This document shows positions 7,430 through 59,400 of a stretch of 64,000 nt of DNA, one piece after another. Location of the stretch: NCBI GenBank assembly GCA_032433765.1, contig JAVIAB010000046.1, forward strand, positions 62,098,951 through 62,162,950. Direction: 5' to 3'. This DNA comes from Megaustenia siamemsis (lineage: Eukaryota; Mollusca; Gastropoda; Stylommatophora; Ariophantidae). The translations under genes and the position numbers were made by a program. The number at the start of each line of letters is the position of its first letter. The stretch's first letter is position 1. A model generated the notes under the pieces. It was not told the DNA's origin. It was given only the letters and a program-made list of their open reading frames with translations, and did no database searches.

Positions 7430-8470
7430 TCCGATTGAGTATTGTTTTGAGTGTTTAGTGGACGAACTTTGAGATGATGGTAGAGAGTGTTTAGTGGACG
7501 AACTTTGAGATGATGGTAGAGAGTGTTTAGTGGACGAACTTTGAGATGATGGTAGAGAGTGTTTAGTGGACGAACTTCGAGATGATGGTAGAGAGTGTTT
7601 AGTGGACGAACTTTGAGATGATGGTAGAGAGTGTTTAGTGGACGAACTTTGAGATGATGGTAGAGAGTGTTTAGTGGACGAACTTTGAGATGATGGTAGA
7701 GAGTGTTTAGTGGACGAACTTTGAGATGATGGTAGAGAGTGTTTAGTGGACGAACTTTGAGATGATGGTAGAGAGTGTTTAGTTGACGAACTTTGAGATG
7801 ATGATAGACAGTGTTTAGTGGACGAACTTTGAGATGATGGTAGAGAGTGTTTAGTGGACGGACTTTGAGATGATGGTAGAGAGTGTTTAGTGGACGAACT
7901 TTGAGATGATGGTAGAGAGTGTTTAGTGGACGAACTTTGAGATGATTGTAGAGAGTGTTTAGTGGACGAACTTCTAGATGATGTAAGAGAGTGTTTAGTG
8001 GACGAACTTCGAGATGATGGTAGAGAGTGTTTAGTGGGCGCACTTTCAGATGATGGTAGAGAGTGTTTAGTGGACGAACTTCGAGATGATGGTAGAGAGT
8101 GTTAAGTGGACGAACTTTGAGATGTCGGTAGAGAGTGTTTAGTGGACGAACTTTGAGATGATGGTAGAGAGTGTTTAGTGGGCGCACTTTCAGATGATGG
8201 TAGAGAGTGTTTAGTTGACGAACTTTGAGATGACGGTAGAGAGTGTTTAGTGGACTGTAAGATGATGGTAGAGAGTGTTTAGTGGGCGCACTTTCAGATG
8301 ATGGTAGAGAGTGTTTAGTGGGAGAACTTTGAGATGATGGTAGAGAGTGTTTAGTGGATGAACTTTGAGATAATGTAGAGAGTGTTTAGTGGACGCACAT
8401 TGAGATGATGTAGAGAGTGTTTAGTGGACGGACTTTAAGATGATGTAGAGAGTGTTTAGTGGACGGACTT
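7430..8470 (-). repeat. 36-bp LINE-derived satellite (about 29 copies)
   Basis: The 36-bp unit contains gagtgtttagtggacgaact. On the minus strand it reads as a 12-residue unit, VRPLNTLYHHLK, open for 258 codons because 36 is a multiple of 3. The array starts exactly where recognisable LINE A coding sequence stops (about 8470). LINE A reads straight into it: NENV, then ERGKVRPLNTLYHHL. In the related copy at 54795-55640 the matching position reads NENVLKETKVKRQLISNIRK. I infer that the unit is an expanded 12-codon piece of the LINE C-terminal region. Confidence 0.93.
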
Positions 8471-8632
8471 TGCCTCTTTCAGTAACGTTTTCATTACGCT
8501 TCTAAGCTGTCATTGGCATTCTTAACATTCTTCAGTAAAACCACATTTCTACAGCCTCCATTAATTTTCTTGTCTGTTGTTCTATTATCCATGATACACA
8601 TTCATAGGTTAAGACTGGCTCTACATAGCATT

Positions 8633-8802
8633 CATCATCATCATCATTGAGTGCCGTCTCCGCATCGAAGGTTGGCTACCATGGAGCGCCATTCCGCTCT
8701 GTCTCTAGCTTTGATGGTGCAGATTGTCATAGGTTGATTTGTCTATCTTTTGATGTTAATCGTTCATGTTAGTCTTGGTCTGCCTCTACCTCTATTATAA
8801 AT
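8633..8802 (-). mobile_element. LINE 3'-end fragment nested in LINE A
   Basis: About 170 bp of LINE C-terminal coding sequence on the minus strand (RGRGRPRLT, then RDRAEWRSMVANLR), ending in an (ATG)n tail seen as catcatcatcat on the + strand. It interrupts LINE A between sequence matching FVEPVL and the VIKC codons of the sister copy. The flanks form a near-perfect 10-bp target-site duplication: acatagcatt at 8623-8632 and acataacatt at 8803-8812. It is a severely 5'-truncated insertion of the same family as the 9720-9890 end. Confidence 0.8.
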
Positions 8803-8950
8803 ACATAACATTTAAGAACTCTTTATCTTGTTTCTATTGTCAAAAATGGATTGCACAGTCTATTCCTCATTTTTTAGAAAGCTGCTTTTGCCTGAGCCAT
8901 TCTACATCTCACCTCTTTTGTACATCTTCCGTCTGAGGTTAACAAAGTTC

Positions 8951-9556
8951 CTAATATTTAAATTCATTTACCTGTTTTAATATTGTTCCACTTGTCTTTA
9001 TTTTGCATTGAGGTAATGTCTTTTTCTTTGTTGTTACCATTACCTCTGTCTTTTTGCTATTAAGTCTGAGTCCTTTATTTTTTCTTTCTTTCATTATAAT
9101 GTCCAACATTTCTTGTAACTCATTTTCGCTCTTAGCGATTAAGACTGTATCATCGGCATACCTTAGATTATTTATATTATGACCTGCAATTGTTATTCTA
9201 GGCGTGCCCCTTATGGATCTTAAAATAATCTCACTATAAATATTAAATAAATATGGTGACAGCACACAACCTTGTCTAACACCTTGTTTTATTTGTTGAA
9301 ACATTCCCAATTGGTTTCCAGTTCTTATGGCCGCTGTTTGTTGCCAGTACATGTTCTTTATTATTCTTAGATCTTTGCTATCTACTTTTATGCCTTCTAA
9401 AATTTTGATTATTTCTTGGTGCTTTACTTTGTCAAATGCCTTGGTGTAATCTATGAAACATAGGTGTAGATCTGTTTTCACCTCTATGGCTTTTTCTGCT
9501 AAAGATCTTATGATATAAATGGCATTACTTGTTCCTTTACCTCCACCAAACCACAC
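8951..9556 (-). pseudogene. Reverse transcriptase fragment of LINE A
   Basis: An open stretch of about 200 codons holds the central RT palm and fingers. Visible blocks are FIDYTKAFDKV (motif A with its Asp), GVRQGCVLSPYLFN (motif B), NNLRYADDTVLIA (motif C, the catalytic YADD), and KTEVMVT followed by FKY. An RT of this type copies LINE RNA at nicked chromosomal DNA. The N-terminal fingers continue in another frame (9508-9816), starting near HRTISFMSH, so a frameshift separates them. Just past FKY the frame is lost again (a stop where the sister copy has FKYLGTLL). No endonuclease or start is present, so this is a dead copy. Confidence 0.88.
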
Positions 9557-9719
9557 TGTTCATCACTAATTTCTGGACTGATTTTGTTTCGCACTCTTCG
9601 CATGATGATTCTTAGTAATATCTTAGTCATGTGACTCATAAAGCTTATTGTGCGATGATCATCGCATTCAATCGCACTCGATTTATTGTGGCAACTCGGT
9701 AATATTAGAGCACTACCGT

Positions 9720-9890
9720 CATCAACATTGAGTGGCGAACATTGGCTACCATGGAGCGCCATTCTGCTCTGTCTCTTGTTTTGATGGTGCAGGTTGTCAT
9801 AGGCTGGCTTGTCCATCTATTGATGTTACTCCTCCATGTTAGTCTTGCTCTGATCCTGCCTCTTTTATCCTGTATTTCCCCTTCCAAGAT
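9720..9890 (-). mobile_element. LINE B 3' coding end
   Basis: On the minus strand this reads EGEIQDKRGRIRARLTWRSN and then RDRAEWRSMVANVR, the typical C-terminus of an RTE-like LINE ORF, followed by an ATG-rich tail. It lies immediately downstream, in the minus direction, of the 57/63-bp array. The array itself lies downstream of the LINE B RT at 19376-20011. The three parts therefore read as one LINE copy with a hugely expanded internal segment. A one-base frame change separates array and tail: the array frame exits as HVKRDGRLSN. Confidence 0.8.
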
Positions 9891-12800
9891 TACTTAGGCG
9901 GCCGTCTCTTTTAACATGTAGCAAAAATTGTATTTGTCTTGTTTGAATTGTGTTTAGTGGTTCTCTTTTAACATGTAGCAAAAATTGTATTTCTCTTGTT
10001 TGAATTGTGTTTAGTGGTTCTCTTTTAACATGTAGCAAAAATTGTATTTGTCTTGTTTGAATTGTGTTTAGTGGTTCTCTTTTAACATGTAGCAAAAATT
10101 GTATTTGTCTTGTTTGAATTGTGTTTAGTGGTTCTCTTTTAACATGTAGCAAAAATTGTATTTGTCTTGTTTGAATTGTGTTTAGTGGTTCTCTTTTAAC
10201 ATGTAGCAAAAATTGTATTTGTCTTGTTTGAATTGTGTTTAGTGGTTCTCTTTTAACATGTAGCAAAAATTGTATTTCTCTTGTTTGAATTGTGTTTAGT
10301 GGTTCTCTTTTAACATGTAGCAAAAATTGTATTTCTCTTGTTTGAATTGTGTTTAGTGGTTCTCTTTTAACATGTAGCAAAAATTGTATTTCTCTTGTTT
10401 GAATTGTGTTTAGTGGTTCTCTTTAACATGTAGCAAAAATTGTATTTGTCTTGTTTGAGTTGTGTTTAGTGGTTCTCTTTTAACATGTAGCAAAAATTGT
10501 ATTTCTCTTGTTTGAATTGTGTTTAGTGGTTCTCTTTTAACATGTAGCAAAAATTGTATTTCTCTTGTTTGAATTGTGTTTAGTGGTTCTCTTTTAACAT
10601 GTAGCAAAAATTGTATTTCTCTTGTTTGAATTGTGTTTAGTGGTTCTCTTTTAACATGTAGCAAAAATTGTATTTCTCTTGTTTGAATTGTGTTTAGTGG
10701 TTCTCTTTTAACATGTAGCAAAAATTGTATTTGTCTTGTTTGAGTTGTGTTTAGTGGTTCTCTTTTAACATGTAGCAAAAATTGTATTTCTCTTGTTTGA
10801 ATTGTGTTTAGTGGTTCTCTTTTAACATGTAGCAAAAATTGTATTTCTCTTGTTTGAATTGTGTTTAGTGGTTCTCTTTTAACATGTAGCAAAAATTGTA
10901 TTTCTCTTGTTTGAATTGTGTTTAGTGGTTCTCTTTTAACATGTAGCAAAAATTGTATTTGTCTTGTTTGAATTGTGTTTAGTGGTTCTCTTTTAACATG
11001 TAGCAAAAATTGTATTTGTCTTGTTTGAATTGTGTTTAGTGGTTCTCTTTTAACATGTAGCAAAAATTGTATTTCTCTTGTTTGAGTTGTGTTTAGTGGT
11101 TCTCTTTTAACATGTAGCAAAAATTGTATTTCTCTTGTTTGAATTGTGTTTAGTGGTTCTCTTTTAACATGTAGCAAAAATTGTATTTCTCTTGTTTGAA
11201 TTGTGTTTAGTGGTTCTCTTTTAACATGTAGCAAAAATTGTATTTCTCTTGTTTGAATTGTGTTTAGTGGTTCTCTTTTAACATGTAGCAAAAATTGTAT
11301 TTCTCTTGTTTGAATTGTGTTTAGTGGTTCTCTTTTAACATGTAGCAAAAATTGTATTTCTCTTGTTTGAATTGTGTTTAGTGGTTCTCTTTTAACATGT
11401 AGCAAAAATTGTATTTCTCTTGTTTGAATTGTGTTTAGTGGTTCTCTTTTAACATGTAGCAAAAATTGTATTTCTCTTGTTTCAATTGTGTTTAGTGGTT
11501 CTCTTTTAACATGTAGCAAAATTGTATTTCTCTTGTTTGAATTGTGTTTAGTGGTTCTCTTTTAACATGTAGCAAAAATTGTATTTCTCTTGTTTGAATT
11601 GTGTTTAGTGGTTCTCTTTTAACATGTAGCAAAAATTGTATTTCTCTTGTTTGAATTGTGTTTAGTGGTTCTCTTTTAACATGTAGCAAAAATTGTATTT
11701 GTCTTGTTTGAATTGTGTTTAGTGGTTCTCTTTTAACATGTAGCAAAAATTGTATTTGTCTTGTTTGAATTGTGTTTAGTGGTTCTCTTTTAACATGTAG
11801 CAAAAATTGTATTTGTCTTGTTTGAATTGTGTTTAGTGGTTCTCTTTTAACATGTAGCAAAAATTGTATTTGTCTTGTTTGAATTGTGTTTAGTGGTTCT
11901 CTTTTAACATGTAGCAAAAATTGTATTTCTCTTGTTTCAATTGTGTTTAGTGGTTCTCTTTTAACATGTAGCAAAAATTGTATTTCTCTTGTTTCAATTG
12001 TGTTTAGTGGTTCTCTTTTAACATGTAGCAAAAATTGTATTTCTCTTGTTTGAATTGTGTTTAGTGGTTCTCTTTTAACATGTAGCAAAAATTGTATTTG
12101 TCTTGTTTGAATTGTGTTTAGTGGTTCTCTTTTAACATGTAGCAAAAATTGTATTTCTCTTGTTTGAATTGTGTTTAGTGGTTCTCTTTTAACATGTAGC
12201 AAAAATTGTATTTGTCTTGTTTGAATTGTGTTTAGTGGTTCTCTTTTAACATGTAGCAAAAATTGTATTTGTCTTGTTTGAATTGTGTTTAGTGGTTCTC
12301 TTTTAACATGTAGCAAAAATTGCATTTGTCTTGTTTGAATTGTGTTTAGTGGTTCTCTTTTAACATGTAGCAAAAATTGCATTTGTCTTGTTTGAATTGT
12401 GTTTAGTGGTTCTCTTTTAACATGTAGCAAAAATTGCATTTGTCTTGTTTGAATTGTGTTTAGTGGTTCTCTTTTAACATGTAGCAAAAATTGCATTTCT
12501 CTTGTTTGAATTGTGTTTAGTGGTTCTCTTTTAACATGTAGCAAAAATTGCATTTGTCTTGTTTGAATTGTGTTTAGTGGTTCTCTTTTAACATGTAGCA
12601 AAAATTGCATTTGTCTTGTTTGAATTGTGTTTAGTGGTTCTCTTTTAACATGTAGCAAAAATTGCATTTGTCTTGTTTGAATTGTGTTTAGTGGTTCTCT
12701 TTTAACATGTAGCAAAAATTGTATTTCTCTTGTTTGAATTGTGTTTAGTGGTTCTCTTTTAACATGTAGCAAAAATTGTATTTCTCTTGTTTGAATTGTG

Positions 12801-15800
12801 TTTAGTGGTTCTCTTTTAACATGTAGCAAAAATTGTATTTCTCTTGTTTGAATTGTGTTTAGTGGTTCTCTTTTAACATGTAGCAAAAATTGTATTTCTC
12901 TTGTTTGAATTGTGTTTAGTGGTTCTCTTTTAACATGTAGCAAAAATTGTATTTCTCTTGTTTGAATTGTGTTTAGTGGTTCTCTTTTAACATGTAGCAA
13001 AAATTGCATTTCTCTTGTTTGAATTGTGTTTAGTGGTTCTCTTTTAACATGTAGCAAAAATTGTATTTCTCTTGTTTGAATTGTGTTTAGTGGTTCTCTT
13101 TTAACATGTAGCAAAAATTGTATTTCTCTTGTTTGAATTGTGTTTAGTGGTTCTCTTTTATTTTACATGTAGCAAAAATTGTATTTGTCTTGTTTGAATT
13201 GTGTTTAGTGGTTCTCTTTTAACATGTAGCAAAAATTGTATTTCTCTTGTTTGAATTGTGTTTAGTGGTTCTCTTTTCATTTTACATGTAGCAAAAATTG
13301 CATTTGTCTTGTTTGAATTGTGTTTAGTGGTTCTCTTTCATTTTAACATGTAGCAAAAATTGTATTTCTCTTGTTTGAATTGTGTTTAGTGGTTCTCTTT
13401 TCATTTAACATGTAGCAAAAATTGCATTTGTCTTGTTTGAATTGTGTTTAGTGGTTCTCTTTTCATTTTAACATGTAGCAAAAATTGCATTTGTCTTGTT
13501 TGAATTGTGTTTAGTGGTTCTCTTTTAACATGTAGCAAAAATTGCATTTGTCTTGTTTGAATTGTGTTTAGTGGTTCTCTTTTAACATGTAGCAAAAATT
13601 GCATTTGTCTTGTTTGAATTGTGTTTAGTGGTTCTCTTTTAACATGTAGCAAAAATTGCATTTGTCTTGTTTGAATTGTGTTTAGTGGTTCTCTTTTAAC
13701 ATGTAGCAAAAATTGCATTTGTCTTGTTTGAATTGTGTTTAGTGGTTCTCTTTTAACATGTAGCAAAAATTGCATTTCTCTTGTTTGAATTGTGTTTAGT
13801 GGTTCTCTTTTCATTTTAACATGTAGCAAAAATTGCATTTGTCTTGTTTGAATTGTGTTTAGTGGTTCTCTTTTAACATGTAGCAAAAATTGCATTTGTC
13901 TTGTTTGAATTGTGTTTAGTGGTTCTCTTTTCATTTTAACATGTAGCAAAAATTGCATTTGTCTTGTTTGAATTGTGTTTAGTGGTTCTCTTTTAACATG
14001 TAGCAAAAATTGCATTTGTCTTGTTTGAATTGTGTTTAGTGGTTCTCTTTTCATTTTAACATGTAGCAAAAATTGCATTTGTCTTGTTTGAATTGTGTTT
14101 AGTGGTTCTCTTTTCATTTTAACATGTAGCAAAAATTGCATTTGTCTTGTTTGAATTGTGTTTAGTGGTTCTCTTTTCATTTAACATGTAGCAAAAATTG
14201 CATTTGTCTTGTTTGAATTGTGTTTAGTGGTTCTCTTTTCATTTTAACATGTAGCAAAAATTGCATTTGTCTTGTTTGAATTGTGTTTAGTGGTTCTCTT
14301 TTCATTTTAACATGTAGCAAAAATTGCATTTGTCTTGTTTGAATTGTGTTTAGTGGTTCTCTTTTCATTTTAACATGTAGCAAAAATTGCATTTGTCTTG
14401 TTTGAATTGTGTTTAGTGGTTCTCTTTTCATTTTAACATGTAGCAAAAATTGTATTTGTCTTGTTTGAATTGTGTTTAGTGGTTCTCTTTTCATTTTAAC
14501 ATGTAGCAAAAATTGTATTTGTCTTGTTTGAATTGTGTTTAGTGGTTCTCTTTTAACATGTAGCAAAAATTGCATTTCTCTTGTTTGAATTGTGTTTAGT
14601 GGTTCTCTTTTAACATGTAGCAAAAATTGCATTTGTCTTGTTTGAATTGTGTTTAGTGGTTCTCTTTTAACATGTAGCAAAAATTGCATTTCTCTTGTTT
14701 GAATTGTGTTTAGTGGTTCTCTTTTAACATGTAGCAAAAATTGCATTTGTCTTGTTTGAATTGTGTTTAGTGGTTCTCTTTTCATTTTAACATGTAGCAA
14801 AAATTGCATTTGTCTTGTTTGAATTGTGTTTAGTGGTTCTCTTTTCATTTTAACATGTAGCAAAAATTGCATTTCTCTTGTTTGAATTGTGTTTAGTGGT
14901 TCTCTTTTCATTTTAACATGTAGCAAAAATTGCATTTCTCTTGTTTGAATTGTGTTTAGTGGTTCTCTTTTCATTTTAACATGTAGCAAAAATTGCATTT
15001 CTCTTGTTTGAATTGTGTTTAGTGGTTCTCTTTTCATTTTAACATGTAACAAAAATTGCATTTCTCTTGTTTGAATTGTGTTTAGTGGTTCTCTTTTCAT
15101 TTTAACATGTAACAAAAATTGCATTTCTCTTGTTTGAATTGTGTTTAGTGGTTCTCTTTTCATTTTAACATGTAACAAAAATTGCATTTCTCTTGTTTGA
15201 ATTGTGTTTAGTGGTTCTCTTTTCATTTTAACATGTAGCAAAAATTGCATTTCTCTTGTTTGAATTGTGTTTAGTGGTTCTCTTTTCATTTTAACATGTA
15301 GCAAAAATTGCATTTCTCTTGTTTGAATTGTGTTTAGTGGTTCTCTTTTAACATGTAGCAAAAATTGCATTTCTCTTGTTTGAATTGTGTTTAGTGGTTC
15401 TCTTTTAACATGTAGCAAAAATTGCATTTGTCTTGTTTGAATTGTGTTTAGTGGTTCTCTTTTAACATGTAGCAAAAATTGCATTTCTCTTGTTTGAATT
15501 GTGTTTAGTGGTTCTCTTTTAACATGTAACAAAAATTGCATTTGTCTTGTTTGAATTGTGTTTAGTGGTTCTCTTTTAACATGTAGCAAAATTGCATTTG
15601 TCTTGTTTGAATTGTGTTTAGTGGTTCTCTTTTAACATGTAGCAAAAATTGTATTTCTCTTGTTTGAATTGTGTTTAGTGGTTCTCTTTTCATTTTAACA
15701 TGTAGCAAAAATTGTATTTGTCTTGTTTGAATTGTGTTTAGTGGTTCTCTTTTAACATGTAGCAAAAATTGCATTTGTCTTGTTTGAATTGTGTTTAGTG

Positions 15801-18800
15801 GTTCTCTTTTCATTTTAACATGTAGCAAAAATTGCATTTGTCTTGTTTGAATTGTGTTTAGTGGTTCTCTTTTCATTTTAACATGTAGCAAAATTGTATT
15901 TGTCTTGTTTGAATTGTGTTTAGTGGTTCTCTTTTCATTTTAACATGTAGCAAAAATTGCATTTGTCTTGTTTGAATTGTGTTTAGTGGTTCTCTTTTCA
16001 TTTTAACATGTAGCAAAAATTGCATTTGTCTTGTTTGAATTGTGTTTAGTGGTTCTCTTTTAACATGTAGCAAAAATTGCATTTGTCTTGTTTGAATTGT
16101 GTTTAGTGGTTCTCTTTTAACATGTAGCAAAAATTGCATTTGTCTTGTTTGAATTGTGTTTAGTGGTTCTCTTTTAACATGTAGCAAAAATTGCATTTGT
16201 CTTGTTTGAATTGTGTTTAGTGGTTCTCTTTTAACATGTAGCAAAAATTGCATTTGTCTTGTTTGAATTGTGTTTAGTGGTTCTCTTTTAACATGTAGCA
16301 AAAATTGCATTTGTCTTGTTTGAATTGTGTTTAGTGGTTCTCTTTTCATTTTAACATGTAGCAAAAATTGCATTTGTCTTGTTTGAATTGTGTTTAGTGG
16401 TTCTCTTTTAACATGTAGCAAAAATTGCATTTGTCTTGTTTGAATTGTGTTTAGTGGTTCTCTTTTCATTTTAACATGTAGCAAAAATTGCATTTGTCTT
16501 GTTTGAATTGTGTTTAGTGGTTCTCTTTTAACATGTAGCAAAAATTGCATTTGTCTTGTTTGAATTGTGTTTAGTGGTTCTCTTTTCATTTTAACATGTA
16601 GCAAAAATTGCATTTGTCTTGTTTGAATTGTGTTTAGTGGTTCTCTTTTCATTTTAACATGTAGCAAAAATTGCATTTGTCTTGTTTGAATTGTGTTTAG
16701 TGGTTCTCTTTTCATTTTAACATGTAGCAAAAATTGCATTTGTCTTGTTTGAATTGTGTTTAGTGGTTCTCTTTTCATTTTAACATGTAGCAAAAATTGC
16801 ATTTGTCTTGTTTGAATTGTGTTTAGTGGTTCTCTTTTCATTTTAACATGTAGCAAAAATTGCATTTGTCTTGTTTGAATTGTGTTTAGTGGTTCTCTTT
16901 TCATTTTAACATGTAGCAAAAATTGCATTTGTCTTGTTTGAATTGTGTTTAGTGGTTCTCTTTTCATTTTAACATGTAGCAAAAATTGTATTTGTCTTGT
17001 TTGAATTGTGTTTAGTGGTTCTCTTTTCATTTTAACATGTAGCAAAAATTGTATTTGTCTTGTTTGAATTGTGTTTAGTGGTTCTCTTTTAACATGTAGC
17101 AAAAATTGCATTTCTCTTGTTTGAATTGTGTTTAGTGGTTCTCTTTTAACATGTAGCAAAAATTGCATTTGTCTTGTTTGAATTGTGTTTAGTGGTTCTC
17201 TTTTAACATGTAGCAAAAATTGCATTTCTCTTGTTTGAATTGTGTTTAGTGGTTCTCTTTTAACATGTAACAAAATTGCATTTGTCTTGTTTGAATTGTG
17301 TTTAGTGGTTCTCTTTTCATTTTAACATGTAGCAAAAATTGCATTTGTCTTGTTTGAATTGTGTTTAGTGGTTCTCTTTTCATTTTAACATGTAGCAAAA
17401 ATTGCATTTCTCTTGTTTGAATTGTGTTTAGTGGTTCTCTTTTCATTTTAACATGTAGCAAAAATTGCATTTCTCTTGTTTGAATTGTGTTTAGTGGTTC
17501 TCTTTTCATTTTAACATGTAGCAAAAATTGCATTTCTCTTGTTTGAATTGTGTTTAGTGGTTCTCTTTTCATTTTAACATGTAACAAAAATTGCATTTCT
17601 CTTGTTTGAATTGTGTTTAGTGGTTCTCTTTTCATTTTAACATGTAACAAAAATTGCATTTCTCTTGTTTGAATTGTGTTTAGTGGTTCTCTTTTCATTT
17701 TAACATGTAACAAAAATTGCATTTCTCTTGTTTGAATTGTGTTTAGTGGTTCTCTTTTCATTTTAACATGTAACAAAAATTGCATTTCTCTTGTTTGAAT
17801 TGTGTTTAGTGGTTCTCTTTTCATTTTAACATGTAGCAAAAATTGCATTTCTCTTGTTTGAATTGTGTTTAGTGGTTCTCTTTTAACATGTAGCAAAAAT
17901 TGCATTTCTCTTGTTTGAATTGTGTTTAGTGGTTCTCTTTTAACATGTAGCAAAAATTGCATTTGTCTTGTTTGAATTGTGTTTAGTGGTTCTCTTTTAA
18001 CATGTAGCAAAAATTGCATTTCTCTTGTTTGAATTGTGTTTAGTGGTTCTCTTTTAACATGTAACAAAAATTGCATTTGTCTTGTTTGAATTGTGTTTAG
18101 TGGTTCTCTTTTCATTTTAACATGTAGCAAAAATTGCATTTGTCTTGTTTGAATTGTGTTTAGTGGTTCTCTTTTCATTTTAACATGTAGCAAAAATTGC
18201 ATTTCTCTTGTTTGAATTGTGTTTAGTGGTTCTCTTTTCATTTTAACATGTAGCAAAAATTGCATTTCTCTTGTTTGAATTGTGTTTAGTGGTTCTCTTT
18301 TCATTTTAACATGTAGCAAAAATTGCATTTCTCTTGTTTGAATTGTGTTTAGTGGTTCTCTTTTCATTTTAACATGTAACAAAAATTGCATTTCTCTTGT
18401 TTGAATTGTGTTTAGTGGTTCTCTTTTCATTTTAACATGTAACAAAAATTGCATTTCTCTTGTTTGAATTGTGTTTAGTGGTTCTCTTTTCATTTTAACA
18501 TGTAACAAAAATTGCATTTCTCTTGTTTGAATTGTGTTTAGTGGTTCTCTTTTCATTTTAACATGTAACAAAAATTGCATTTCTCTTGTTTGAATTGTGT
18601 TTAGTGGTTCTCTTTTCATTTTAACATGTAGCAAAAATTGCATTTGTCTTGTTTGAATTGTGTTTAGTGGTTCTCTTTTCATTTTAACATGTAGCAAAAA
18701 TTGCATTTCTCTTGTTTGAATTGTGTTTAGTGGTTCTCTTTTCATTTTAACATGTAGCAAAAATTGCATTTCTCTTGTTTGAATTGTGTTTAGTGGTTCT

Positions 18801-19375
18801 CTTTTCATTTTAACATGTAGCAAAAATTGCATTTCTCTTGTTTGAATTGTGTTTAGTGGTTCTCTTTTCATTTTAACATGTAGCAAAAATTGCATTTGTC
18901 TTGTTTGAATTGTGTTTAGTGGTTCTCTTTTCATTTTAACATGTAGCAAAAATTGCATTTGTCTTGTTTGAATTGTGTTTAGTGGTTCTCTTTTCATTTT
19001 AACATGTAGCAAAAATTGCATTTGTCTTGTTTGAATTGTGTTTAGTGGTTCTCTTTTCATTTTAACATGTAGCAAAAATTGCATTTGTCTTGTTTGAATT
19101 GTGTTTAGTGGTTCTCTTTTCATTTTAACATGTAGCAAAAATTGCATTTCTCTTGTTTGAATTGTGTTTAGTGGTTCTCTTTTCATTTTAACATGTAGCA
19201 AAAATTGCATTTGTCTTGTTTGAATTGTGTTTAGTGGTTCTCTTTTCATTTTAACATGTAGCAAAAATTGCATTTGTCTTGTTTGAATTGTGTTTAGTGG
19301 TTCTCTTTTCATTTTAACATGTAGCAAAAATTGCATTTGTCTTGTTTGAATTGTGTTTAGTGGTTCTCTTTTCAT
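9891..19375 (-). repeat. 57/63-bp LINE-derived satellite, 9.5 kb, about 160 copies
   Basis: The unit contains taacatgtagcaaaaattg. Units are 57 bp, or 63 bp when six extra bases (tttcat type) are present. On the minus strand they encode 19- or 21-residue units: (MK)REPLNTIQTRQMQFLLHVK. Frame is preserved almost throughout, broken only by a few small indels near 10430, 11520, 13165, 15590, 15893 and 17272. Units at 9.9-13.1 kb are all 57 bp, 13.1-17.3 kb is mixed, and 17.3-19.4 kb is nearly all 63 bp. The unit corresponds to the LINE C-terminal block (L)xxI(x)xRQxxFxGHVMR. Both ends join LINE B coding sequence. The encoded long ORFs are very unlikely to be genes. Confidence 0.97.
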
Positions 19376-20011
19376 TTTTTGTTGTTTAAAGACGTCATCG
19401 TTTACTTTCTTTTCTTTCCATCCAATTCTACCTATTCTTCTATAAATCCACATTTCAAAGGCTTCAATTTTCTCTTCTGTTTTCTTGTCAAATGTCCATG
19501 TTTCTGCACCATACAGGAATGTTGAGAAGATATACCATTTTGCTATTCTTAGTTTTAGCCCTGGTGTTATTTGTTTTGATGTTAGAATATTGTTCATGAC
19601 ATTAAAATTACGTTTTGCTATTCCTATTCTTTTGTTTATTTCAGTTGTACATTTTCCATCACTGGTTATAGTATGTCCAGGGTAGTTGTAGTTCTGATCC
19701 AGGTCTATTCCTTCTATTTTGATATCCACTTGTGGGTTTTGAGTATTTTCTTTGTTTATGATCATAGTTTTAGTCTTTTTGATATTTATATCTAATCCAT
19801 ATATTTTGCTTGTCATGTTGATTTCATTAAGTAATTGTTGTAGATCTTTAGGATTTTCTGCTAGTAGTTCAATATCATCAGTATATCTTAGGTTTTTGAT
19901 TATCTTTCCATTAATGTTTAGGTCTGGCATCTCTATGATGTTTTTAAAGATTTGCTCTGTGTATAGATTGAACAAACTTGGTGATAGGATGCATCCCTGC
20001 CTTACACCTTA
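19376..20011 (-). pseudogene. LINE B reverse transcriptase fragment, 5'-truncated
   Basis: Minus-strand LINE RT C-terminal half. It enters at GVRQGCILSPSLFNLYTEQIF (about 20011), then shows NLRYTDDIELLAE, which is the catalytic YADD box with Ala changed to Thr. KTKTMIINKE, ITSDGKCTTEI, WYIFSTFLYGAETWTF and EAFEMWIYRRIGRIGW follow. The frame then runs without a stop into the 57/63-bp array at VNDDVFKQQ-MKREPLNT. Endonuclease and N-terminal RT are missing, so it is a non-autonomous remnant. Its continuation at 9720-9890 suggests the array is internal to it. Confidence 0.88.
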
Positions 20012-36500: not shown

Positions 36501-36762
36501 CTAGTTTGTTGATGTAGTGTGCTAGTTTGTGTGATGTAGTGTGCTAGTTTGTGTGATGTGGTGTGCTAGTTTGTGTAATGTAGTGTGCTAGTTTGTGTGA
36601 TGTATTGTGCTAGTTTGTGTGATGTAGGGTGCTAGTTTGTGTGATGTAGTGTGCTAGTTTGTTTGATGCAGTGTGCGAGTTTGTGTGATGTAGTGTGCTA
36701 GTTTGTGTTATGTAGTGTGCTAGTTTGTGTGATGTAGTGTGCTAGTTTGTTGATGTAGTTTG
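33536..36762. repeat. 22-bp minisatellite (array B, left part)
   Basis: The unit contains gatgtagtgtgctagtttgt. Units are 22 bp, or 20-21 bp where gtttgttgatg replaces gtttgtgtgatg. Aligned to array A it lacks an 11-bp piece (tgagtgagtct), so it looks like a deletion derivative that took over. Occasional composite units with gactgtagtgtgttag or gtgtacgatg occur in blocks. Confidence 0.95.
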
Positions 36763-36764
36763 CA

Positions 36765-37180
36765 GGTATAGAATGGAACGAATTCAAAACAAACGAGGAA
36801 ATTAGAGAAATCGCCAATCAACCACTAATATCTTCAGTAATAAAGAAAAGACGATGGTCATACGTTGGACATGTGATGAGAAGAGATAATAATCGAATAG
36901 CAAAGCAAGCCCTCATATGGGAAACAACAGGTAAAAGAAAAAGAGGAAGACCCAGGGAGACACTGAGAAGAACATTGATGAGAGAGGCAAGAGCAGCAGG
37001 AATCGGCTCCCTCAATGAGCTAGAACTGCTTGCACAGAACAGAGACAGATGGCGAGATTTAATAAAATATCTTTAAAAGAAAACTGCTAGAACAAAAATT
37101 CATATAGGAGAAGGTGTATCTTGGTCTACGCCCTATGGGCCGGTTACGGCCCTAAAGGTCAATAGATAGATAGATAGATA
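36765..37180 (+). mobile_element. LINE E 3' fragment inside the 22-bp array
   Basis: A severely 5'-truncated LINE. The + strand frame reads KKRRWSYVGHVMRRDNNRIA, then KRKRGRPRETLRRTLMREA, and ends LAQNRDRWRDLIKYL plus a TAA stop at 37075. The GHVMRR and GRPR blocks followed by RDRW are the C-terminus of RTE-like LINEs. A 3' UTR of about 100 bases and a (ATAG)n tail follow, after which the 22-bp array resumes. A target duplication cannot be told from the repetitive host sequence. Confidence 0.85.
36873..37076 (+). pseudogene. LINE E C-terminal coding remnant
   Basis: Open stretch of 67 codons from an internal Met to the natural stop. The same frame is open upstream to about 36770, where the copy is truncated: the reading begins IEWNEFKTNEEIREIA. 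Endonuclease and RT are absent, so it cannot act on its own. Confidence 0.75.
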
Positions 37181-39602: not shown

Positions 39603-39822
39603 AATGAACATTCTAGATTTGCGTCCAGGTGTCTTGCCTCTTTTCTAACTGCATTTCTCTTTCCGAGGATAGTATCTCTGCCTCGTACTAGACTTCTAAG
39701 CAGAACTACTTTTGTGGACATTAAAAAACAAACGGCAAAACAAGAAGAACAAGACTAAATTCCTTCTGTCCTTCAACTATCTGTCTGCGTTCCTGTCTTC
39801 TTTCACCGAAATGAAAATATCT

Positions 39823-40956
39823 GAATGCAACGTACATCCTATTGGTCTAGTTTGTGTTCATGTGGATCAGCGGAGCGCTAAACATGAATGCAACGTACAT
39901 CCTATTGGTCTAGTTTGTGTTCATGTGGATCAGCGGAGCGCTAAACATGAATGCAACGTACATCCTATTGGTCTAGTTTGTGTTCATGTGGATCAGCGGA
40001 GCGCTAAACATGAATGCAACGTACATCCTATTGGTCTAGTTTGTGTTCATGTGGATCAGCGGAGCGCTAAACATGAATGCAACGTACATCCTATTGGTCT
40101 AGTTTGTGTTCATGTGGATCAGCGGAGCGCTAAACATGAATGCAACGTACATCCTATTGGTCTAGTTTGTGTTCATGTGGATCAGCGGAGCGCTAAACAT
40201 GAATGCAACGTACATCCTATTGGTCTAGTTTGTGTTCATGTGGATCAGCGGAGCGCTAAACATGAATGCAACGTACATCCTATTGGTCTAGTTTGTGTTC
40301 ATGTGGATCAGCGGAGCGCTAAACATGAATGCAACGTACATCCTATTGGTCTAGTTTGTGTTCATGTGGATCAGCGGAGCGCTAAACATGAATGCAACGT
40401 ACATCCTATTGGTCTAGTTTGTGTTCATGTGGATCAGCGGAGCGCTAAACATGAATGCAACGTACATCCTATTGGTCTAGTTTGTGTTCATGTGGATCAG
40501 CGGAGCGCTAAACATGAATGCAACGTACATCCTATTGGTCTAGTTTGTGTTCATGTGGATCAGCGGAGCGCTAAACATGAATGCAACGTACATCCTATTG
40601 GTCTAGTTTGTGTTCATGTGGATCAGCGGAGCGCTAAACATGAATGCAACGTACATCCTATTGGTCTAGTTTGTGTTCATGTGGATCAGCGGAGCGCTAA
40701 ACATGAATGCAACGTACATCCTATTGGTCTAGTTTGTGTTCATGTGGATCAGCGGAGCGCTAAACATGAATGCAACGTACATCCTATTGGTCTAGTTTGT
40801 GTTCATGTGGATCAGCGGAGCGCTAAACATGAATGCAACGTACATCCTATTGGTCTAGTTTGTGTTCATGTGGATCAGCGGAGCGCTAAACATGAATGCA
40901 ACGTACATCCTATTGGTCTAGTTTGTGTTCATGTGGATCAGCGGAGCGCTAAACAT
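39823..40956 (+). repeat. 63-bp tandem array, exactly 18 copies, apparently identical
   Basis: The unit starts gaatgcaacgtacatcctat and repeats exactly 18 times (1134 bp) with no difference I can see, unlike every other array here. The period is 21 codons and only one frame is open. It encodes ECNVHPIGLV, then CVHVDQRSAKH, inside a 441-codon frame from 39712 to 41037. That frame includes 37 Lys/Phe-rich codons upstream and 26 downstream. I see no splice sites or promoter. A coding role is unproven and a young minisatellite is the simpler view. Confidence 0.96.
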
Positions 40957-41037
40957 GAATGCATTTTTAGCAGTTTTTTATTTTTTATTTTGACGACTCG
41001 CCTGGCCGATTGTTTAAACTTGTGCTTCTCTCATTGA

Positions 41038-54696: not shown

Positions 54697-54794
54697 CATC
54701 CCTAATGTGTTCCAATAATTCATTTTCTATGATTTTAACAGTCCCGAGATACGTATTTTATCAATAATTGTAAACTAGAGTGCTGTACAGACAT

Positions 54795-55640
54795 TTTTAA
54801 AATATTTATAGTGAGATTATGTTAAGATCCATAAGGGGCATGTCTGGAATAACAATTGGAGGTCATGATATAAATAATCTAGGGTATGCTGATGATACAG
54901 TCTTTATCGCTAAGAGTGAAAATGAGTTACAAGAAATGTTGGACATAATAGTGAAGGAAAGCAAAAATAAAGGACTCAGCCTTAATAGCAAAAAGACAGA
55001 GGTAACAACAAAGAAAAAGTCATCAGAGTAATGCACAAGTGGAACAATATTGAAACAGGTAAATGAATTTAAATATTTGGGAACTTTGTTAACCTCAGAC
55101 GGAAGATGTACAACAGAGGTGAGATGCAGAATGGCTCAGGCAAAAGCAGCTTTCCAAAAAGGCTACTTACTGTTCAATCCATTTTTGACAATAGAAAGAA
55201 GAAAAAGAGTTATTAAATGTTTTGTAGAGCCAGTCTTAACAAATGGATGTGAATCATGGACAACAGACAAGAAAATCACTGGAGGCTGTAGAAATGTAGT
55301 TTTACAGAAGAATGTTGAGAATACCACGGACAGCTAAGAAGAGTAATGAAAACGTTCTGAAAGAGACCAAAGTAAAAAGACAGCTAATTTCCAATATTAG
55401 GAAGAGACAATCATCATTTTTTTGTCCGTGTGATGAGAAGAGAACAACTGGAATATATTGTAAGAACTGGGAAAAATTGTGGGACGAAGAGATAGAGGGA
55501 AGCATAGAGAAAAGATACCAGACAGCTTAAGAAAATGGCTTGGCAGAAGGTCAACAACAGAAATGATAAATAACTGTCGAGATCGAAAGTTGTGGAGAGA
55601 CGTGATCACCTACGCCAACAGGCATGGAACTTGATGATGA
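54795..55640 (+). mobile_element. LINE A-type element, 5'-truncated
   Basis: Sister copy of the minus-strand LINE A at 8471-9719. In order: ITIGGHDINNLGYADDTVFI (YADD motif), NELQEMLDIIVKESKNKGL, NEFKYLGTLLTSDGRCTTEV, FVEPVLTNGCESWTT, NENVLKETKVKRQLISNIRK, and a C-terminus in a shifted frame like CRDRKLWRDVITYANRHGT. The tail is tgatgatgatg. There are at least three frameshifts and an early stop after TTKKKSSE. It is useful as a reference because it lacks the 36-bp expansion: the matching point is about 55370. Confidence 0.87.
54819..55337 (+). pseudogene. Reverse transcriptase C-terminal remnant (LINE A-type)
   Basis: Two open stretches, 54819-55031 and 55050-55337, separated by a stop at 55029, encode the RT palm motif C (YADD) onward to the thumb region. 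Motifs A and B and the endonuclease are missing because of 5' truncation. Not functional. Confidence 0.8.
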
Positions 55641-56462: not shown

Positions 56463-59400
56463 TTCTTCTTCTTCTTCTTTCCTTCCTCATCTGCCTTTCA
56501 GCGTCGAGGGGAGATATAATTTGCGGTCTTTTGCTCTTATGTTCGCCTCTGCTGCTGTTATGTTTCCTAGTGCTTCTAATATTCCATCGATCCATCTTTT
56601 TCGTGGTCGACCCTTGGGTCTGTTGTTCTCACAACGTTTGTTGAAGGCTCGTTGTGTTGTGTTTTGTTCTTTCTGCCTTGTCACGTGGCCGAACCATTTT
56701 ATCTGTTGTTTCCTTATATATTCTATGGCTGGGGCTATTCCTAGCTTTTTTCTCAGTTCTACATTTCTGATCTTATCTCTCAGACTGTTTCCTGTCATTC
56801 GTCTAACACATTTCATCTCTGTAGAGGTTATTTTTCTTATTGTTCTTGCATCTAGAGTCCAGGTCTGGCATTGGTAGCACAACGTTGGGATGAAGATTGT
56901 ATTGTATAGTGCTCGTTTTGCCTCCAGGGTTATTTCCTTGTTGGACAATAGTGGTGATAACTGTCCGATGATTTGACAAGCTTTGTTGCATCTTGATTCT
57001 ATCTCTGCTGTTTGGGAATTGTCGTTTGTCATTAGACTTCCTAGGTATTTGAATTCCTCTACTTGTTTTAGTTGTCTGCCTTCTATAGTTATGTTGATGT
57101 TCTGTTTATTTTTGGCGACATTCATGACTTCTGTTTTGTTGATGTTGATTTTCATGTTGTATTTTGTTCCTAAGATGTTGAGTTTGTTTAAGTGTTCTTG
57201 TAGGTCTTCTATTGTTTCATGTATTAGTGCCTGGTCGTCTGCAAATAGAAGCTCGTTGATCTCCTCTGTCTCTGATGGGTTGGCTAGCTTGCATATATGG
57301 TCCATGTATGTAATAAACAGTAGGGGGGATAGTACGCACCCCTGTCTTACAAATGATCTAACTTCGAAGTGGACTGTGTAGCCTGTTGCTGTTCTGACCC
57401 TGCAGCTGCTGTTGGCGTAGAGACTTTTAATAAGGTTGGTTAGATGTTGGCTTACTCCGTATGTTGTTAGTATCTCCCACAGTTGTTCTCTGTTTACTCT
57501 GTCGAATGCTTTTTCCTGGTCAATGAAGGCTATGTATAAGTTTTGGTTGTGTTCTGTCGTTTTTTCTGCAAGCTGTTTTAGTGTGAATAGTGCGTCGGTA
57601 CATCCTCTGTTTTTTCGGAACCCCATTTGAGAATCGCTTAACTGTAGTTCTATTATTGGTCTCAGTCTTTTTTCCAAGATTTTGGCGTATAGCTTTCCTA
57701 CATGGCTGAGCAGAGATATACCTCTATATTGATTGCAGTCTCTTTTGCTACCTTTCTTTTTCCATATTGGTATGATGATTGCCTGTTGCCAGTCTTCTGG
57801 GGCTTGTTGTTGGTGCCATGCTGCATTAAATATTCTGTGCAGCCATGTCACTCCTGTTTCATCTGCTGCTGCTATTATTTCTATTGGTATGTTATCTATC
57901 CCCGGTGCTTTATTTCTTGGTGCATATTTGATTACTTCTTCGATTTCCTTTTTCATGATGTTGGGTTCAGTATTTGTGAGTTCTGGCGTGGTTTTAGTTG
58001 TCTTATTGGTAGTTGGTATGTTTAACAGGTCTTCAAAATATTCTTTCCATCTCTGTTGCATACATTGGTTATTTGATATTGGTTGTCCGTCTTTGTCATT
58101 TATCAGCTCAGTTGGATCATGGCTTTCTTTTCTCGCTCTTGTGGCTTTTACTGCTTTGTAGAAATCTCTTGTGGCTGTCTTGAAGTCCCTGCTCATGTTT
58201 TGTCCGAATTCTGTCCAATTCCTTTGCTTAGCTTCTTTGATCAGCATTTTGACTCTTTTTCGAACTAAGGCATATCTTTCATATTTTTCTTGGTTCTTGT
58301 TCTCCCTCCAATTTTTAAACAGTTTCTTCTTTTCTTTAATTGCTTCTCTGATTGTTTCGTTCCACCACGGGGTGCTCTTTTTCCCTTCTCTTGTTCTTAG
58401 CTTCGTTCCACAAACTGTTTTAGAGATGTTAGTTACTGTTTCCTTAAATTGTTTCCACTCTTCTTCTACTGTGCCTACTTCGTTAGGGAGTTTCTTGAAT
58501 TCCTCTCTGAGTTTTTCTTCTAGGGTTTTCCTTGTTTCTTGATCGTTTAATTGTTTTATTTTTATTGTCTGTTCTTTTCGCTTCTTTTGTTTGTTTTCGT
58601 GTTTTCTCTTTATTTTTGGCTGTCTTAGTGTGATCATAACCAACTTGTGATCCGTGTCGTCTGTAATATTTGGGATTGCTCTACTGTCGGTTACTCTTTT
58701 CTTGTTCTCTTTTCTTGTTAGTATAAAATCTATCTGGCTTCTGCATGTTGTGTCATTCCATTTGTACCAGGTGTATACTTGCGACTCTCTGTGTTTGAAG
58801 AATGTGTTGGTGATAAATAAATTGTTTTGATTGCATAGTTCCAGCAGTCTGCTTCCGTTTTCGTTTATTTCAGCTGTTTTATCGCCAAAGGGTCCTAAGA
58901 TGTCACTGTTCTCACTGTTGCGTTTCCCAAGCCTTCCATTAAAATCTCCCATCACTAACATGTCGTCGCTTTCGTCAATCTTGTTAATGATTTCACTCAA
59001 TGTGTCGTAGAATTCTTCGCTGTCTTTTACATTGTTGTTGCATGGTGCATAGATTTGAATGTAATTTGTTTTTCGATCGTCTTCTAGTAGTTTAATTGTG
59101 ATAATTCTTTCTGAATGGTATTTTATTTCTAGAATGTTCTTTGCGTGTTCTGGGTCGATGATAAAACCTACTCCATGTGTTGCTCTTTCTGTGTTGTCGA
59201 CTCCCGAGAATATTTTCGTGTAGTTCATGTGTGTTTTCTTTATCTGTTGTCCTTTTACTCTGGTGTCCGCTAATCCTAGTATTTTAATTTTCCTTTTTGT
59301 CATTTCTTCTATAAGTTCGATTTCTTTATTTTTTATCCCGCATATGTTTATCGTTGCTACTTTGATCTCCATATTCTATGTATTTCTCTGAGCATAAATA

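Follow-up and report, generated by a model that had tools for sequence, protein, structure and literature searches.

Origin of a long tandem array within a LINE

How does part of the reading frame of a mobile element become a long tandem array, and what does the place where this happened look like? The question is raised by a stretch of 64,000 bp (referred to here as the window) from the gastropod Megaustenia siamemsis, located at 62.1 Mb on a contig of 67.3 Mb (G000:C46:62098951-62162950). Within it, one copy of a long interspersed nuclear element (LINE), which we call LINE B, is divided by an array of 159 tandem units. This array is very probably an in-place tandem expansion of one block in a dead, 5'-truncated copy of LINE B. 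The block is single in other copies of the element, one and the same LINE lies on both flanks of the array, and the short repeat AAAAGA borders the unit. The three features that make up this locus are as follows.

19373..20008, minus strand: 5'-truncated LINE B, from the C-terminal portion of the reverse transcriptase domain onward to VFKQQ (Pfam RVT_1, 1.3e-15; 91-93% to 39 other copies).
9905..19372, minus strand: 159 tandem units, each of 57 bp (REPLNTIQTRQMQFLLHVK) or 63 bp (with MK in addition), from the LINE block between AAAAGA repeats.
9720..9904, minus strand: exit, the remaining LINE B C-terminus (RDGRLSN / ILEGEIQDKRG ... RAEWRSMVAN) in a changed frame, then the 3' end; 12.5% from the LINE B consensus.

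Structure of the array and its flanks

Tandem Repeats Finder (TRF) reports a single array between 9905 and 19372 (159.1 copies, 96% matches), and a parse into units gives 159 of them, arranged head-to-tail on the minus strand. A sequence-only reading of this DNA had proposed about 160 copies of a unit of 19 or 21 codons, in good agreement with these figures. Among the 158 spacings between units, 86 are of 57 bp and 62 of 63 bp, with the remainder at 62 bp (five), 56 bp (four), and 61 bp (one). The two lengths are not mixed evenly, as the entry side of the array is filled by 63-bp units and the exit side by 57-bp units only. Furthermore, units that stand 42 apart agree at 33 of 36 positions among the first 105 units (the best of 1000 block shuffles reached 20), and stretches of about 2.5 kb have therefore been duplicated within the array.

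LINE B has the attributes of retrotransposons without long terminal repeats, namely an RVT_1 domain, 5'-truncated copies, and 3' ends of simple repeats (TGATGA). Homology of the window copy to LINE B starts at about 20009, as judged by eye, and the candidate for a target-site duplication is only a 6-bp match between the flanks. The left flank (20008-19373; 636 bp) is no chance resemblance, having matches at 39 further genomic places, at 91-93% and across most of the flank or the whole of it. Together with the exit (9904-9720) it forms adjoining parts of one LINE C-terminus. The array leads out to RDGRLSN, the frame changes after RLSN, and ILEGEIQDKRGRIRARLTWRSN ... RAEWRSMVAN follows. At the exit, RARLTWRSN ... 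RAEWRSMVAN is the C-terminus of the LINE; the copies do run out into it, as the sequence-only reading had it, though in a changed frame.

The unexpanded element

The genome searched comprises 2.59 Gb in 155 contigs. Searched with the left flank, this genome yielded 11,093 first-look candidates; the best 40 were scored and are the window and 39 other LINE B copies, all 39 of which were read. The block is single in 38 of these 39, on a count that could miss a strongly diverged second unit, and the remaining copy (L009) breaks off before the block. In 35 of the 39 the block is followed by a match to the exit (in L008 to its first 38 bp only), which is absent from L004, L035, and L038. The consensus of the 39 copies reads VLKQLKMKRELLNTIQTRQMRFLGHVKRHNSLLKVILEGKIQGKRG, and the consensus of the array is 92% identical to LINE B over 63 bp. 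The same holds for related LINE proteins from other sources: among the first 40 of the 120 listed (423 found), the alignment has one block at the matching place, and one of these proteins, P0016, carries another LINE-like segment, separate and further along.

The earlier proposal was that the unit is a block of the LINE itself, that an unexpanded element would have exactly one unit between the two flanks, and that flanks from different LINE families or a unit without counterpart in the intact element would speak against it. The 38 single-block copies are as predicted. The two flanks come from a single family, and in the unexpanded copies MKRELLNTIQTRQMRFLGHVK is the counterpart of the unit.

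Borders of the unit and a proposed mechanism for expansion

In the unexpanded element the block starts with AAAAGA and the next AAAAGA stands after it, 57 bp apart, with the exact pair at this spacing present in 30 of the 39 copies. This distance is the length of the 57-bp unit. The Haber-Louis model reportedly concerns the expansion of sequences flanked by direct repeats of 5-10 bp, and the unexpanded copies have such a repeat at exactly one unit length. The first duplication could have arisen by mispairing at the AAAAGA repeat, and the length of the 63-bp unit would match pairing at AAAA just upstream. Unequal crossing-over or slippage of whole blocks would later, much after insertion, have enlarged and homogenised the array, in which a stretch of about 42 units is visibly duplicated.

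Expansions at other loci

Four further loci carry separate expansions of the same LINE region, with 7, about 6, 3, and 2 units. They were recognized from junction patterns and by reading the loci; the patterns tolerate no mismatch and the counts are lower bounds. L081 (on C50) has seven units, one of them shortened to 48 bp; L092 (C90) has five whole units of the variant AATTGTTGGGGCATG and one partial unit; and L082 (C59) has two units, of 48 and 57 bp, with about 75 bp of LINE before them. All three are bounded by AAAAGA. At the fourth locus, L090 (C47), three units with a period of 65 bp stand in another register, out of frame and with LINE sequence before the array. Its borders are also direct repeats, as the units are delimited by four copies of the 11-bp repeat AAAACAAATGA, and when L090 is collapsed in silico to its unexpanded form that copy contains the 11-bp repeat at 65 bp. 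These arrays are not pieces of the window array, because the unit variants are particular to each locus and CCACTAA, a form of the unit junction that was found in the window only among 100 of 124 matches listed, occurs at none of the four.

Two of the patterns tried as marks of tandem copies turned out to be unspecific. GTTAAAAGAG gave those 124 matches, the 100 listed comprising 86 in the window and 14 outside; the nine loci read for the 14 outside places were seven single-unit and two tandem (L081 and L082). For TTAAAATGAAAAG (244 matches, 100 listed), all 30 loci read were single at the match, and the 65-bp array of L090 came to light among the matches listed. A stricter junction pattern gave 17 matches at nine loci, of which those on C50 and C90 are tandem and L093-L098 have one unit (C87 was left out). 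The exact tandem junction is present only on C50 and C90 among the loci read.

Age of the array relative to the insertion

Five substitution sites vary across the 159 units (in 74, 59, 14, 3, and 3 units), and the other variation consists of the 6-bp length difference and eleven losses of 1 bp. The flanks of the same copy have diverged much further, with 37 differences from the LINE B consensus in 631 bp (5.9%) on the left and 24 in 192 bp (12.5%) at the exit; for the left part, the median in the 39 other copies is 2.2%. We estimate that units as old as the flanks would differ at hundreds of bases in 9 kb. In addition, the window unit variant TTTTTGCTACATG with a normal exit has no exact counterpart in another copy (0 of 32 other matches with at most one mismatch), and amplification of the window unit thus followed its mutations. 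From the few variable sites, set against flank divergence of 5.9-12.5%, and from this private variant, the expansion, or at least the last homogenisation, is probably much younger than the insertion.

Several points weigh against an in-place expansion of this kind. Two of the other arrays, L081 and L092, lie at 5' truncation points, which recombination after insertion does not predict. The AAAAGA repeat is only 6 bp long, and the block has other short repeats that were left unused, one of them of 8 bp at a spacing of 63 bp. Repeats of 6 bp at distances of 20-94 bp outnumber those in shuffled sequences by no more than a factor of about two (20 against 10.3), and those of 8 bp do not outnumber them (1 against 1.0). 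Part of the divergence from the consensus may be an older subfamily difference and not a measure of insertion age. Furthermore, this reading offers nothing beyond chance to explain why 57 and 63 should both be multiples of 3.

Alternative explanations

The arrays at truncation points hint that target-primed reverse transcription may itself give rise to the seed duplications. The cDNA would slip between the AAAAGA repeats on the LINE RNA, recopy the block, and fall off, so that the truncated insertion would have an array at its 5' end; a long array would then require later growth in the genome. The insertions at L081 (seven units) and L092 (five units and a partial one) are indeed 5'-truncated at or inside the array, with the LINE 3' end after it. 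The unit variant of L081, CGATTTTGGGGTCATG, occurs with a normal exit at 20 other places (matched by sequence, not read singly), so it probably predates the L081 insertion. There are also few private changes between whole 57-bp units, 2 in 342 bases at L081 (the 48-bp unit left out) and 2 in 285 bases at L092 (the partial first unit, which has at least one more, left out). These are only two cases, however, and other observations point the opposite way. LINE sequence precedes the array in the window copy (636 bp), in L090, and, over its shorter stretch, in L082. In L093 and L096 the truncation falls near the unit, which is nevertheless single. At L092 the nearest relative of the 3' flank is only 93.5% alike (97.5% at L081), while private change within the array amounts to 0.7%. 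This points to an array younger than the insertion, although few relatives were compared. For the window array, the LINE sequence in front of it and the mutations common to all its units fit later genomic growth, and, with no exact TTTTTGCTACATG beside a normal exit among the 32 other matches, amplification falls after those mutations. Seeding by reverse transcription is thus a possible but doubtful origin for the duplications. Its fuller form is more tentative still: the LINE's own reverse transcriptase would seed satellites by slipping at the fixed 57-bp AAAAGA pair, giving small arrays often with 5' truncation, and one such seed, or a copy like it, would have grown to 159 units. If this were true, a retrotransposon family would carry a built-in, recurrent source of new satellites.

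It might also be argued that the array is an artefact of assembly and the real locus short. Near-identical long arrays are the hardest to assemble, and the copy number may be wrong. An artefact is nevertheless very improbable as an explanation of the locus, given the internal structure of the array (the uneven distribution of 63-bp and 57-bp units between its entry and exit sides, and the repeated blocks) and the small-scale versions of the same process at other loci.

That a pre-existing satellite invaded or inserted into LINE B can hardly be credited and was rejected. Such an origin would suit a window of which two-thirds is tandem repeat, and in which a 36-bp satellite interrupts another LINE at a matching place (see below). 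The 57-bp unit is itself the LINE block, though, and the array replaces that block without extra sequence; the single-unit copies likewise speak against it.

The frame of the array bears on a last possibility, that of a coding repeat. On the minus strand, the LINE frame from 20008 passes VFKQQ into the array without a stop, as the sequence-only reading had noted, and the spacing is 19 or 21 codons in 148 of the 158 cases. The open reading frame (ORF) does not continue through all the copies as that reading had it. It is 920 codons long, with loss of the frame in unit 34 and a stop at 17248 in unit 35; in 10 of the 158 cases the spacing is not a multiple of 3, and the exit lies in another frame. 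The proposal that a coding segment of the LINE became a satellite inside the insertion is therefore upheld as regards expansion in place, but not as regards a continuous ORF. Most of the 1-bp losses sit in short T or A runs, and some of them may for this reason be sequencing errors. Of the five variable substitution sites, four are nonsynonymous, against 127 nonsynonymous and 36 synonymous possible changes, which is about the mix expected without selection; five sites are few for a test of selection. No homologous repeat protein was found at E <= 1e-5 among 7,994 scored candidates, and a protein function of the array is unlikely. Despite the codon-sized spacings, a repeat selected as a repetitive protein domain is thus the least probable explanation and was rejected, in view of the broken frame, the neutral-like substitutions, the want of a homologous repeat protein in that search, and the out-of-frame array at L090.

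LINE A and other repeats in the window

Next to the LINE B copy lies a second LINE, LINE A. The features concerned are the following.

8468..9700, minus strand: LINE A copy, 5'-truncated, RVT_1 5.7e-32, broken off at the start of the 36-bp satellite; adjoins the LINE B copy.
7449..8472, minus strand: satellite with a 36-bp unit, at the corresponding position of LINE A (TRF).
8650..8810, minus strand: another LINE B 3' end, a short one, lying within LINE A (limits approximate, as judged from the sequence).
54780..55640, plus strand: LINE A copy without the satellite, for comparison.

The 36-bp satellite starts at the LINE A position that matches that of the 57-bp array in LINE B, and it has CCACTAAACAC in common with the 57-bp unit, and with this sequence a base at which both depart from the LINE B consensus. 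It was considered as a second LINE-derived array, and this is unsupported, as other LINE A copies match only up to the junction: the matches of all 39 other scored copies, taken from 4,450 first-look candidates, end at the junction or at most about 7 bp from it. In the same search the satellite part matched the window only, with very common words skipped, so that its absence elsewhere is unproven. When 20 satellite units of the window were screened against the LINE DNA of the window, the only strong match was that of the 57-bp unit (1e-22), and the next best were of 14-15 bp (E 0.001-0.003). Several copies of LINE B sit within LINE A sequence or abut it (L003, L008, L010, and 8650-9700 in the window); one element may prefer the other as a target, on cases uncounted against chance.

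Tandem repeats cover 42,903 of the 64,000 bases (25 arrays kept from 71 TRF rows), and many different tandem units stand next to one another, a sizeable share of them with lengths of 33-63 bp. One example is a 63-bp repeat at 39822-40963 (18.1 copies, 100% matches), which has an open frame of 445 codons from stop to stop. LINE fragments of at least three kinds are present. At 36759-37180 a LINE 3' fragment, with the GHVMRR block and a terminal ATAG repeat, lies inside a 22-bp satellite of 32.8-38.7 kb, and at 56487-59375 there is a LINE reading frame of a third kind (962 codons, RVT_1), whose best relative is 50% identical. Searches of viral contigs (by exact pattern), plasmids, Rfam, and for tRNA gave nothing.

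Comparison with known satellites

The window array has several properties of a satellite. Its monomer is homologous to part of a transposable element (TE), the LINE B block, and it forms a long, homogeneous head-to-tail array. As far as seen, it does not spread over many loci or take up a large share of the genome and is a single-locus array, either a nascent satellite or a large minisatellite.

Satellites derived from LINE ORFs are already known. A review lists PROsat (L1 ORF2, Phodopus), Pvc20 (L1 ORF2, Phoca vitulina), and HinfI/SCR1 (CR1, chicken), which resemble the window array in that a satellite is similar to part of a LINE reading frame (PMC9659126). The difference from these examples, as listed in the review, is that here the whole transition is visible at one locus with both LINE flanks, along with single-unit copies and separate small arrays in the same genome (PMC9659126). 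In humans, a survey that also cites the Haber-Louis model describes 300 tandem repeats within TE copies bounded by direct repeats of 5-20 bp, with certain TE regions acting as possible hotspots, and 6,817 repeats without an assignable mechanism, most of only two units (PMC3389668). The M. siamemsis array likewise lies within a TE copy and has a short direct repeat at its border, and with 159 units of one LINE block it is much larger (PMC3389668).

Closest in form to the smaller loci are the squamate satellites (sSats) derived from short interspersed nuclear elements (SINEs). sSats repeat a portion of a retroposon in tandem; in most of them the terminal unit is longer and reaches the end of the element, and loci of few units in varied register occur beside long homogeneous ones (PMC10702118). 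L081 and L092 have this form. The sSats come from SINEs and some are present at many loci, whereas the window array comes from a coding block of a LINE and is one long locus; it also has LINE sequence on both sides, a layout described among sSats as only a minor variant (PMC10702118). TE-derived satellites are often recognized by similarity alone, after their birth, as in the examples from the review above (PMC9659126). LINE- and SINE-derived satellites have thus been published before, and what distinguishes this case is that the birthplace is intact and several stages are present in one genome. With a single-unit element, loci of 2, 3, 6, and 7 units, and an array of 159 units side by side, the start of a satellite, its borders, and the timing of its growth become measurable.

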